Of a DNA stretch of 64,000 bases, positions 13,601 to 19,600 are shown one piece after another. Position numbers and translations under genes: made by a program. Position 1 is the stretch's first letter. Every line of letters starts with the position of its first letter. Source of the stretch: Salvelinus alpinus (taxonomy: Eukaryota > Chordata > Actinopteri > Salmoniformes > Salmonidae); assembly GCF_045679555.1 (NCBI RefSeq), contig NC_092110.1:3673390-3737389 (forward strand), given 5' to 3'. The notes below the pieces were generated by a model. It made no database searches and had not been told where the DNA came from. It worked only from the letters and a program-made list of their open reading frames with translations.

Positions 13601-16600
13601 CACACACAAAATTGCATTTAATGGTGCAGCCTTCTTATTGGTCAACAAAAGACGCACCATCTCTATTCCACACCGCCATGAGAGCCATGAGAAAACTAGT
13701 GATCAGTCGTGGAAATTAAAGTGCTGAAAACAACTCGGCTTCCTATTTAAAAAGAAGATGAATAAGCTATGAAAGAAAAATACTGGAGTCTTGGTGCAGT
13801 TTACTTGCGCAAAAACTATATTGTCAAAACGATATATCCTAAAAAAAGAATATCCCTATGTAAATATCATTATTTAAAATAAATTGTATCACAATTTTAC
13901 ATGTGATAAGGCCGCACAGAAGGTCAGAGATAATTACAGACCGTTGTAAAAATCTGAAGGATCCAAAAAGGCCGCTAGATGTCTTGTGATACCAACATTT
14001 TAAGATACCAAAATTCTGGTACTGTAGTTTATTGGTGAACTTATAAAGTGTCTACCCTCTCTTTGCAACCCTAGTCCTGTCATTCCCCCACATATGTTCT
14101 CTTGCTTTCTCTCTCTCCCCTCTCTCTCCCCTCTCTCTCCCCTCCCTCTCTCTCTCTCCCCTCTCTCTCCCCTCTCTCTCTCCCCTCTCTCTCTCCCCTC
14201 TCTCTCCCCTCTCTCTCCCCTCTCTCTCTCTCTCTCTCCTCTCTCTCTCCCCTCTCTCTCTCCCCTCTCTCTCTCCCCTCTCTCTCCCCTCTCTCTCTCC
14301 CCTCTCTCTCCCCTCTCTCTCTCCCCTCCGTCTCTCTGTCCTCTCTGTCTGTCTCTGTCCTCCTTCCACTCGTGCTCTTCTATATACGTTCATTCATCTT
14401 CTGCTCAGTTCGGCTTCAGAGGTTCAGCACTGGATTCAACACTCTGTATTACACATTTATTGACTACAGTCGGATCCGTAACTTTCAATTTCATTCACAA
14501 ATCTATTCTAACGTCTTGATTGGATTTATAGAAAAATACCATTTACAAATCTATAAACGGTGCCATTGTTTGAAAACAGTCAATTTAATTAGGGAATGCA
14601 GATGGGTCATTCCACGAAAGAGTGCCTTTTGCGTGCGTCCCTTTTGATATTTTAAGTAGACAATGTGCACCAATATAGCATTTTAAAAGCCTGTTATATT
14701 TAATGATGTGCCCTTCAATATAGACCACATCGTGAATTCAATAAATATGCAAAATTCTGCGTTTTGACATGTCCCTCCGTGTACTTCTGACTTTTAGGAA
14801 GATTTTAACCCACTTAACCTCCAAATGTCTCCAAGTTATATCATCATTGTAAAGCCCTGGTTATTTTGTTGCTTCGACAAATTAATTTCTTCAGATTATT
14901 ATTTATTTCGTGTAATTAGTGATTCATTTACGTCTCTCCCTCATTTCGAGATCAACCCTGTTACGTGAGGTGAACTATTCCTTTGAAAAAATATTTTCTT
15001 CAGAAGAAACATTGAACATCTTATGGCCAAACCACAAAGCAGGTGAGCTGGTTCTACTCTTGTTGGCCATGTTCTCTTTTGTGGTGGAAAATTGAGCGGG
15101 TCGAGCATAACCCATAGATAGACAGGCTAGACCTGTTTTAACAATTTACATTTTGCTGGGGAAGCTTTCATTCAATTGCCACTTGCTGTTGCACACAACA
15201 AGCTTCAATTTCCCCCTGTCAAAAAAGGGGATTTATGGCTGATTTTAAGATGAAATTTTCAACCCTGTCACTTTTTATTTGGCACTTAGTAGGCACTTAC
15301 TATAGTATATTTTATTTATTTAACCTCTTGATAGGAAAACATGTTTTTTAGGAAATTGAACATGTGCTCTTTATGATAAAAAAAAAAGAGAATGAGGTGA
15401 AATCAAACGTTTTTGGGGGACCAAGTTACACTTGGTGCACCAAATTGGTGGAACGACCCAGTTGCTAGCCTCTGAGTTCCTTAGATTTTTTCTATTCTTA
15501 TGATTTTTTATCAATGTTTTGTCTTACCTTTCTTTACTGTTGCTCTCCCTCTCTCTGTTGCTCTCTCTCTCTCTCTCTGTTGCTCTCTCTCTCTCTCTCT
15601 CTGTTGCTCTCTCTCTGTCTCTCTCTCTGTTGCTCTCTCTCTCTGTTGCTCTCTCTCTTTGGCCTTGTAAAGACAAAGACATTCCACCTGTGACGTCTTG
15701 CATGGCCCGCCTTTCTATCTTTTATAAGTCTGTGAAACAGACTTATCGTTCTTCTAACGCCCGTAAGTCATCTCATGTTTATCATACTCAGTTGTCTTCT
15801 CTCCATTTTTTTTCTTCTCTCCATCTCTCTCTTTCTCTTCAATCTGTTTCAATCACCATTTGTTTTCATGCACTCAGACAACTTATTTTAGCTGACACTT
15901 ATTTAAAAGTGTATGGATAAGTAGCTTAACTGGACAGGGAATATGATTTTCATACGATAGTCACATGGAGGAATGGGGAAGATATTGCAATTACTGACAG
16001 CCTTAGTCTTTGTTTATCTATCAGCTCAGTTAAAAAGCTCCTAACATAGTTACTTGCCTCCGATCTTTCCCAACTATGAACATCTTAAGCCCACTTTGAA
16101 GCTAGTTGATGGTCAGCAGCAGTCTTCACTGTAGAGAACACGTTGGTCTTTGTCATGTCTGTTCTCCACAGCTCTCTGTGATAACAACACGTTGGTCTAA
16201 GACATGTCTGTTCTCCACAGCTCTGTGATAACAACACGTTGGTCTTAGACATGTCTGTTCTCCACAGCTCTGTGATAACACGTTGGTCTAAGACATGTCT
16301 GTTCTCCACAGCTCTCAGTGATAACAACACATGTCTGTTCTCCACAGCTCTCAGTGGTAACAACACGTTGGTCTAAGACATGTCTGTTCTCCACAGCTCT
16401 CAGTGATAACAACACGTTGGTCTAAGACATGTCTGTTCTCCACAGCTCTCAGTGGTAACAACACGTTGGTCTAAGACATGTCTGTTCTCCACAGCTCTGT
16501 GATAACAACACGTTGGTCTAAGACATGTCTGTTCTCCACAGCTCTGTGATAACAACACGTTGGTCTTAGACATGTCTGTTCTCCACAGCTCTCAGTGGTA

Positions 16601-19600
16601 ACAACACGTTGGTCTAAGACATGTCTGTTCTCCACAGCTCTGTGATAACAACACGTTGGTCTAAGACATGTCTGTTCTCCACAGCTCTGTGATAACACGT
16701 TGGTCTAAGACATGTCTGTTCTCCACAGCTCTCAGTGATAACAACACATGTCTGTTCTCCACAGCTCTCAGTGATAACAACACGTTGGTCTTTGTCATGT
16801 CTGTTCTCCACAGCTCTCAGTGATAACAACACGTTGGTCTAAGGCATGTCTGTTCTCCCCAGCTCTCAGTGATAACAACACGTTGGTCTAAGACATGTCT
16901 GTTCTCCACAGCTCTCAGTGATAACAACACGTTGGTCTAAGGCATGTCTGTTCTCCCCAGCTCTCAGTGATAACAACACGTTGGTCTTTGTCATGTCTGT
17001 TCTCCACAGCTCTCAGTGATAACAACACGTTGGTCTAAGGCATGTCTGTTCTCCCCAGCTCTCAGTGATAACAACACGTTGGTCTAAGACATGTCTGTTC
17101 TCCACAGCTCTCAGTGATAACAACACGTTGGTCTAAGACATGTCTGTTCTCCACAGCTCTCAGTGATAACAACACGTTGGTCTAAGACATGTCTGTTCTC
17201 CCCAGCTCTCAGTGATAACAACACGTTGGTCTAAGACATGTCTGTTCTCCACAGCTCTCAGTGATAACAACACGTTGGTCTAAGACATGTCTGTTCTCCA
17301 CAGCTCTGTGGTAACAACACGTTGGTCTTTGTCATGTCTGTTCTCCACCGCTCTCAGTGATAACAACACGTTGGTCTTTGTCATGTCTGTTCTCCACAGC
17401 TCTCAGTGATAACAACACATTGGTCTAAGACATGTCTGTTCTCCCCAGCTCTCAGTGATAACAACACGTTGGTCTAAGACATGTCTGTTCTCCACAGCTC
17501 TGTGATAACACGTTGGTTTAAGACATGTATGTTCTCCACAGCTCTCAGTGATAACAACACGTTGGTCTAAGACATGTCTGTTCTCCACAGCTCTGTTGGT
17601 CTAAGACATGTCTGTTCTCCACAGCTCTGTTGGTCTAAGACATGTCTGTTCTCCACAGCTCTGTTGGTCTAAGACATGTCTGTTCTCCACAGCTCTCAGT
17701 GATAACAACACATTGGTCTAAGACATGTCTGTTCTCCACAGCTCTGTTGGTCTAAGACATGTCTGTTCTCCACAGCTCTCAGTGATAACAACACGTTGGT
17801 CTAAGACATGTCTGTTCTCCACAGCGCTCAGTGATAACAACACGTTGGTCTAAGACATGTCTGTTCTCCACAGCTCTCAGTGATAACAACACATGTCTGT
17901 TCTCCACAGCGCTCAGTGATAACAACACGTTGGTCTAAGACATGTCTGTTCTCCACAGCTCTCAGTGATAACAACAATGGAAACAACGCTTTGGAAGAGA
18001 AAAGCAACAAATCACCAACGTCAGGTAAAATGTCATTCTCAATTACTGTATAATACAAAACGCAATCTACCTTTTACGTGAAGAAGTACAAATTACACAT
18101 GTTTGACATGTCTATTTACTAGCTGCTTTTGGGTTTCGACTCAGTAAAGGAGTGTTAAAAGGGTTGATGTCCACTGAAGTGTTGTTGTCGCCGTATACAG
18201 TAGGCTCTACGTCACCCACCAATTCAGACGATGAACACAAACAGAAAAGGTTCATACAGAAGGGTACTGTATTACATTGATGAATCAACAACATCTACTG
18301 AGCTTCATTCTTCCCGTATGTTCTGGCCATTGGCAACGCGATTTTACATTTGCCTTTTGTCTTTTTAAAACACATTTGCAGTGAAGTCCAAAAGCAGGCG
18401 GTTTTCCAAGACGGTTGCCAATGACTTTGGTAGTGTATGATCCCTGTGTTATAAACTCTACTGCTTTCTCTCTTACCGACTTCACTTTGTGTTCTAACCA
18501 AGGCTGTGCCTTAATCCAACATGCTGATGATGATGATGATGATGATGGAGAAGATAAATGCACTCAATCTGCGGGTTGTTGTTGTCAATCACAAGGTGGC
18601 TGATGGTCTATCGAAGTGATCCGCTGCACTTTGTCAAGTGCATGACAGACAGAGGGGCCTCCACATTTCTCTCTAAGGATGAAATGTACTATGCTTTTTG
18701 CACTAGAGTAAAATCATTGTAGCACATGTTCTCTCTAAAGAGAATAGAATGTGAAATAAAGATCACAAAAACTTTACAAAATCACTCAAATCTAAAAGCG
18801 TTGCAATTTTTCGCTGGTTCAAACATATAGTAATTCTGTAATCTCTTACTAATTTCTAACTAATTTGAGGTATTGGGAATGTTCATCAATAGAATAACTG
18901 AAGTTTTGGTTTGACAAAAATATATAAATATTTATATTACAGGACCTTGGTACTTGATTATTCCCTTGAATGATTTATCCTCTCTCTCCTTTCCAGTCTT
19001 CCATTGTAACAATAACCAGAATTCAATCTCTTTTTCTTGTCTACCTCTTGCTTTTTTTGACGTTACAGGCTGTGTGTGTGTGTGTGTGTGTGTAATAATG
19101 CTAGGCTCGCATTGACTGTACTTCTCCTCATAGCCTGGCTGTTCGGCATGATGCACTCAATAACCAGCTGCCTCTGAGGATCAATGCTAATTCTACATTC
19201 TCTCATGCTTTTTGCCAATGAGTGGCGGATGACAAATTTGCCAAGAGTGATCAAAACAAGCGTCATTTTATATGGCCAGTTAAAAATGTTTTATTCGTTT
19301 GTAAAGAGGGTATGTTTTATTTTATTTATACATTTTTTTTCTTGCAGCCAAGATGTCAAGGAAAATTTGCTCGCCTACAGAGCAAAAGACAGACCTGGGT
19401 AAGCCCTTATAACTTTGTGTTGTTTACATTCCCTAGTAGCTCTTCTACTTTTCAGGTGCTGTTCCATTCCCACTTCTTAAGTACCCCAAACGTTCCTTAC
19501 ATTTTCAATGTTCATAAATGTTGTTTTGTGAGAGTGTAGCCCTAGCCTGGTGGAACCAGCCCGATGGCTGCGTTTACCATTACAACAGAGTTGTGTGCTG

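Follow-up and report, generated by a model that had tools for sequence, protein, structure and literature searches.

Forty acceptor units in a row: a minisatellite spanning an intron/exon boundary of stxbp5 in Salvelinus alpinus

In the genome of the charr Salvelinus alpinus (assembly GCF_045679555.1), a stretch of 64,000 nucleotides (contig NC_092110.1, positions 3,673,390 to 3,737,389, forward strand), referred to here as the window, contains stxbp5, the gene of tomosyn-1, and one intron of this gene carries a minisatellite whose unit spans an intron/exon boundary. Forty copies of a 3' splice site (acceptor) are arranged in sequence, and the last of them is the authentic acceptor of a conserved exon. 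The array is best explained as a "mirage", that is, a minisatellite grown from the tandem duplication of a real boundary, which is tolerated because its decoy acceptors are bypassed through exon definition; a probability of about two in three is assigned to this explanation.

The stxbp5 gene and its hypervariable exons

The open reading of stxbp5 in the window (Table 1) counts the first exon, cut by the window edge, and leaves out the alternative exon at 15673. A protein search with this translation placed salmonid stxbp5 models on top (among the best 120 of 4218 matches), and a PDB search matched M-tomosyn 1urq over the SNARE part, as well as LLGL proteins. The WD40/LLGL part, the hypervariable linker, the R-SNARE C-terminus, and salmonid orthologues, which together identify stxbp5, were all found. 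In total, 240 proteins were fetched, comprising these best 120 and 120 of the 130 matches of a second search tuned to truncated forms (E ≤0.001); all protein models discussed here are predictions, and those called listed belong to the best 120. The S. alpinus isoform X8 (P0009) equals the window translation at 848/848 aligned residues, lacks only the 36-residue b-type insert formed by the second and third hypervariable exons, and joins PSG to ALSDNNNG, which corresponds to the authentic acceptor. The same acceptor is used, with inclusion of the 66-nt exon behind it, in all seven listed S. alpinus models of this gene copy.

Four exons, all short and of phase 1-1 and starting at 17959, 18204, 18382, and 19348, correspond to the mammalian hypervariable region, the spliced exons of which are reported to define the tomosyn isoforms (PMC3188574). 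Some of the exons that distinguish the s, m, and b isoforms of tomosyn (PMC3188574, PMC5061411) also account for differences among the charr models, and a primer for m-tomosyn-1 given in PMC5061411, as translated here, crosses the joint of the first and fourth hypervariable exons. It is the first of these four exons that follows the charr array, and no array is mentioned in the available portions of either source. A link to T-STAR/SLM2 through exon 23 of Stxbp5l was set aside, as it concerns tomosyn-2 and homology of the exons is not established.

The 66-nt exon was found by a loose pattern in 99 of the 120 listed proteins, other teleosts reading ALCDSNDGSN..EDRCKSPTS. Judged by this comparison of sequences, the exon is old and genuine; an origin from the repeat, or a pseudogene copy, was rejected on account of its conservation across fishes and the intact reading frame. 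As for the exon upstream of the array, the original prediction had named the donor at 11648, for which phase 1 holds, and had overlooked a second possible donor, that of the conserved 90-nt exon at 15673-15762 beside the array. This 90-nt exon, or its like, is present in six of the 240 fetched proteins, from salmonids, Myripristis, and Echeneis. CT-rich repeats (15543-15658) lie just 5' of it.

The array, its units and the sister copy

Splitting the array unit by unit yielded 40 acceptor cores of the form TTCTCC[A/C]C[A/C]G, each followed by exon-like sequence, and the 40th core, with its first exonic base at 17959, is the authentic acceptor, the authentic boundary forming one end of the array. 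The 49-bp unit comprises 31 intronic and 18 exonic nt, of which the exonic part is identical to the first 18 nt of the 66-nt exon. There are 16 distinct unit sequences, with lengths of 49, 47, 44, 36, and 34 bp; a special higher-order repeat was rejected, since a single three-unit string recurs in the order of exact unit types. The array makes up 83% of the 2196-nt intron counted from the 90-nt exon, an intron that measures 6310 nt when counted from the donor at 11648. The number of units is taken from one assembly and one haplotype.

Most of the decoys retain the signals of an acceptor. An intact AG, within CCACAG or CCCCAG, is kept by 38 of the 39, the sole exception being CCACCG at 17351. 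With an approximate acceptor matrix, 37 of the 39 score at least as high as the authentic site, and 10 are identical to it from -25 to +17. The authentic site itself is middling (8.18, tenth from the bottom among 21 acceptors scored in stxbp5); both matrices, for acceptors and for donors, hold approximate frequencies, and their scores serve ranking only. A branch-point-like ATAAC or TCTAA lies between an acceptor and the preceding one in 38 of 40 cases, indicating that most units hold the parts of an acceptor. The unit holds no donor, and the best donor-like site in the array, at 17526, scores 5.77 and occurs in one unit only. Variation is lower in the acceptor core than in the rest of the unit, which is rich in indels, and AG is broken in one unit of 39; concerted evolution alone could give both the low variation of the core and the near-universal AG.

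Splicing from the phase-1 donor at 11648 to any of the 39 decoys would lead into an in-frame stop, at codon 10 in 21 decoys, codon 3 in seven, codon 5 in four, codon 4 in one, and codons 20 to 32 in six, while the authentic site stays open. The same applies to 39/39 decoys when the donor of the 90-nt exon, likewise of phase 1, is used, and decoys that add an in-frame peptide were accordingly rejected (0/39). Recursive splicing was also rejected, as the joint CAG/CTCT, by reading, contains no GT.

These results uphold much of the original prediction, which had read from the letters a minisatellite of about 40 acceptor copies ending at an exon of stxbp5 (Tandem Repeats Finder, TRF, gives 39.1 copies and the unit-by-unit split gives 40 cores), the last unit as the true acceptor, about 39 decoys nearly all intact, and a stop behind each; its codon readings were correct, the gene was rightly named, and the exon is indeed genuine rather than derived from the repeat.

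Table 1. Features of stxbp5 and of the acceptor array (positions in the window)
Feature	Position	Strand	Description
stxbp5 (tomosyn-1)	2-26777	+	WD40 part to R-SNARE C-terminus; 21 coding pieces, 884 aa, no stop
Preceding exon	11497-11648	+	donor at 11648; ends in phase 1
Conserved alternative exon	15673-15762	+	90 nt, phase 1-1; AG and GT present; conserved in sister gene
Minisatellite	16137-17976	+	period 49, 39.1 copies, 82% matches (TRF); 3' end inside the real exon
39 decoy acceptors	16172-17958	+	first exonic bases 16172 to 17910; each runs into an in-frame stop
Authentic 3' splice site	17934-17958	+	40th copy; used in all 7 S. alpinus models listed for this copy
First hypervariable exon	17959-18024	+	66 nt, phase 1-1; conserved in teleost proteins
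Second hypervariable exon	18204-18263	+	60 nt, phase 1-1
Third hypervariable exon	18382-18429	+	48 nt, phase 1-1
Fourth hypervariable exon	19348-19398	+	51 nt, phase 1-1
Further alternative segment EKRVRRQ..VPYL	19746-19868	+	tblastn 95%; in salmonid isoforms P0004, P0035 and others

The history of the array is illuminated by a second locus in the same genome (L009, on contig C34), whose longer stretches of alignment with the window, both coding and intronic, are 77-87% identical, and which is taken to be the sister gene from the salmonid duplication, an age suggested by this comparison. Two 36-base unit patterns, allowing up to three mismatches, matched the 2.37 Gb genome just at the array and once at the sister gene; the search scores the best candidates only, and genome-wide uniqueness is thus not proven. 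In the sister, 60 of the 66 bases of the 66-nt exon are identical, as are 33 of the 36 intronic bases directly before it. There is no array at this boundary, which holds two units, 47 bp apart, compared with 40 units in the window copy; 47 bp is also the length of one class of units in the window. The upstream unit of the sister reads CCACAT, lacks AG, and scores 1.6, whereas its authentic acceptor scores 8.18, the same as that of the window. By alignment, the loss of AG corresponds to one G-to-T change relative to the 47-bp unit 2, or to a 2-base gap relative to unit 1. Because the CTCTGTGATAA form of the unit is common to the sister copy and the 47-bp units of the window, a single duplication of the boundary probably took place before the gene copies parted, presumably before the salmonid genome duplication, and of the two genes the window copy alone carries the expansion. 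Moreover, the 90-nt exon of the sister lies only 183 nt upstream of its 66-nt exon, and the intron downstream of the latter is about 1.76 kb. Other minisatellites are present in L009 (reverse complement) at 3883-4596 (47 bp x 15) and 8169-8317 (48 bp x 3).

Elsewhere in the window, a 317-aa open frame at 25450-26403, by reading only similar to Tc1/mariner-type transposases, lies in the last intron of the tomosyn gene, and a SAM-domain-like open frame is found downstream of stxbp5 at 32673-33425, which, given the human order STXBP5-SAMD5-SASH1, belongs perhaps to samd5/sash1. A 38-bp minisatellite of 4.8 copies occupies 45494-45675, where no exon is known.

Choice among the forty acceptors

The formation and tolerance of the array may be described in four steps. 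First, a two-unit duplication of the acceptor would have preceded the parting of the gene copies, the two units of the sister speaking for both a common origin and this age. Second, as the sequences show, the upstream unit of the sister has no AG and no array is present there, while the window copy has 39 upstream units, 38 of them with AG. Third, the last unit would be chosen because preference goes to the acceptor closest to the downstream donor. According to a study from which the rules of acceptor choice and their 250-nt limit are taken (PMC9225289), the choice between acceptors separated by more than about 20 nt typically falls at the first splicing step, and a long upstream intron combined with a short downstream intron mimics exon definition, favouring the sites closest across the exon. 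In the charr array, acceptors at least 20 nt apart would mostly be chosen at this step, an exon body and a donor follow the last unit only, and the last unit should win, given a long upstream intron (2196 or 6310 nt) and a short one downstream (179 nt). Fourth, occasional use of a decoy would place a stop within 32 codons and produce a substrate of nonsense-mediated decay (NMD), for which reason decoy use must stay low, the array being otherwise nearly neutral. Should the array act at all, it would more probably do so through skipping of the 66-nt in-frame exon that increases with array length, by analogy with human ABCA7 (below), or through a weaker connection of this exon to the 90-nt exon, across an intron of 2196 nt here and 183 nt in the sister, than through control of dosage by NMD. 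By arithmetic, use of each of the 38 live decoys at 0.28% would already cost 10% of the mRNA, and at 1.8% half of it, so that decoy use must be very low if stxbp5 is to work normally. The layout of the sister is the opposite one when its 90-nt exon is used, in that an upstream decoy would be expected to win and to do harm; the decoy in the sister is dead, which fits the reading based on exon definition as far as a single gene pair can suggest.

Several observations weigh against this reading. Over all alternative-acceptor events together, the upstream acceptor is reported to be the preferred one, a preference that is only lowered where both introns of an exon are long (PMC9225289); in addition, the layout of the introns before the growth of the array may differ from the present one. 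The nearest five decoys would give pseudo-exons of 283, 249, 200, 151, and 115 nt, which fall in the usual range of exon sizes, and size does not exclude them. Nor is the authentic site singled out by local RNA accessibility, ranking fourth of 40 over a 23-nt stretch; a structure hiding the decoys was rejected, as accessibility did not differ clearly between them and the authentic site. Predicted protein models would, moreover, hide the products of NMD. The 66-nt exon is missing from 14 UniRef-only salmonid models of this copy and from three sister-type models (P0079, P0080, and P0085); one of these models, P0055, skips it cleanly. Several of the salmonid models lacking the exon seem to hold a retained intron or look poorly built, and little weight is therefore placed on them, although some skipping of this exon among salmonid models may be real. 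Lastly, the chinook model P0116, whose exon resembles the sister gene, translates the acceptor core as TCLFST straight into ALSDNSDG, which is taken as an oddity of annotation and could reflect the use of an upstream AG.

A first alternative is that array length tunes the isoforms, a longer array making the 66-nt exon less often included or less often paired with the 90-nt exon, so that the linker is changed in frame and not in dose. Both exons are multiples of three and of phase 1-1. Weaker joining of the two is conceivable because the intron between them measures 2196 nt here compared with 183 nt in the sister, and the 90-nt exon occurs in none of the seven S. alpinus models of this copy, compared with one of three listed sister-type models. 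A precedent is provided by the variable number tandem repeat (VNTR) in human ABCA7, where skipping of exon 19 is reported to rise strongly with VNTR length (PMC5954066). However, the isoform counts are tiny, being drawn from the best 120 of 4218 matches and from clusters at 90% identity, the masu salmon model of this copy (P0053) carries the 90-nt exon, and the 66-nt exon is included in all seven charr models. Such tuning is thus considered unlikely.

The second alternative is a dosage rheostat, in which a share of transcripts set by array length is spliced to decoys, stopped, and lost to NMD. The original prediction had raised such a modulation of tomosyn dosage, together with a competition of the unit AGs for U2AF, as possibilities. 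It draws on the stops behind all 39 decoys from either upstream donor, on their largely intact AG and high scores, and on the reported rise of ABCA7 isoforms bearing premature termination codons, near the donor-bearing VNTR, when NMD was blocked (PMC5954066). Against it, the same source puts the use of donors in the VNTR units at about 2%, equal at all VNTR lengths, and the costs calculated above would make strong use harmful. The decoy peptide patterns (LSDNNT, NNTL, SGNNT, final ALLV, and VLHSS) were found in none of the 240 fetched proteins, a search in which NMD targets would be missed and in which eight decoys, stopping after AL or ALW, offer no pattern. Among the matches of the search for truncated forms (120 of 130, E ≤0.001), there was likewise none that is a close salmonid form of the window copy with a decoy peptide at its end. 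A strong effect of the array in general is also opposed by the listed charr models, predictions that use the authentic site in seven of seven cases, and by lancelet mirages, which reportedly leave splicing undisturbed. The rheostat is accordingly regarded as quite improbable.

An error of assembly, the true array being collapsed or of a length other than 39 units, is very improbable: tandem arrays are prone to misassembly, yet the 16 unit types follow in a little-repeating order, with no N and with intact gene flanks on a 49.8-Mb contig, and it is the count alone that is in question, the existence of the repeat being hardly in doubt.

The background of minisatellites was assessed in 20 sampled 10-kb stretches (L010-L029, with 7,696 N), all taken 5 Mb from contig starts and not a random sample, which contained 47 arrays of four or more copies, 30 reaching 10 or more. 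In eight of the 47, one or the other strand held by chance an acceptor-like motif with a score of 8.18 or above. One of the stretches (L012) is filled entirely by a minisatellite. It is therefore not surprising that some exon boundary should be caught in an array somewhere in this genome, and, as minisatellites and chance acceptor motifs are common, it is the exon and the sister gene that carry the claim made here, and not the motif; what stands out is the size of the array, its intact acceptors, and the sister copy. That one array of a minisatellite-rich genome (about one of at least four copies per 4 kb in the sample) merely happens to end at an exon is highly doubtful, since 18 nt are common to unit and exon and this boundary is also present as two tandem units in the sister, which means that the boundary itself was duplicated, and a chance origin of a mirage is already part of the preferred explanation.

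Relatives of the array and its significance

The original prediction had called an acceptor amplified as a tandem repeat unusual. This stands in part, given that a literature search judged by titles and the beginnings of abstracts found no vertebrate acceptor-side array, which is not proof of absence from print; on the other hand, the class already bears the name of mirages, and a donor-side equivalent has been described in ABCA7 (PMC5954066). Lancelet mirages, known from Adh3, the globins BflGb6 and BflGb9, TnC, and PGBD5, are tandem repeats of intron/exon boundaries (PMC3087553), which are reported not to disturb splicing (PMC3087553, PMC3902484). Their defining features were found in the charr array, namely a unit spanning the boundary, the authentic boundary at one end, and duplicated splice signals that are largely kept, as many lancelet units keep AG or GT. 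The closest resemblance is to BflGb6, which, according to PMC3087553, repeats the 3' end of an intron and the 5' part of an exon and is thus of the acceptor type; it has six or three units of 150-160 bp, whereas the charr array has 39 units, mostly of 49 bp, and belongs to a vertebrate. The charr array also differs in that every decoy is followed by a stop and that a two-unit sister copy exists whose decoy lacks AG. Variation in length between haplotypes is a feature of the lancelet mirages, while the charr array is known from one haplotype.

The VNTR in intron 18 of human ABCA7 has a 25-bp unit containing the donor of exon 18 (PMC5954066). It shares with the charr array a vertebrate host, a splice site within the unit, a real site that is itself an end unit (the first in ABCA7, the last in the charr), and an out-of-frame product when a unit is used. 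The two differ in side, the ABCA7 unit carrying a donor and the charr unit an acceptor. In addition, polymorphism of length and length-dependent skipping of exon 19 have been measured in ABCA7, whereas the charr array is known from its sequence alone.

A bolder possibility, which we think quite unlikely, is that array length acts as a heritable dial on charr tomosyn, a short, intron-defined intron having been stretched into a long, exon-defined one full of live acceptors. If this were true, the number of units would set the joining and skipping of the hypervariable exons and the amount of message lost, the sister, with its decoy dead, would stay constant, and of the pair one copy would thus be fixed and the other tunable.

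The array places forty near-identical acceptors before one exon, ten decoys matching the authentic site from -25 to +17, beside a sister gene in which one acceptor alone is live at this exon. Three models of acceptor choice (first come, nearest to the upstream donor, and nearest to the downstream donor) can be told apart by which of the forty is used. The charr array represents a vertebrate acceptor-side match for the disease-linked repeat of ABCA7, and it reveals the extent to which a minisatellite carrying splice sites can expand within a vertebrate synaptic gene that is still intact.

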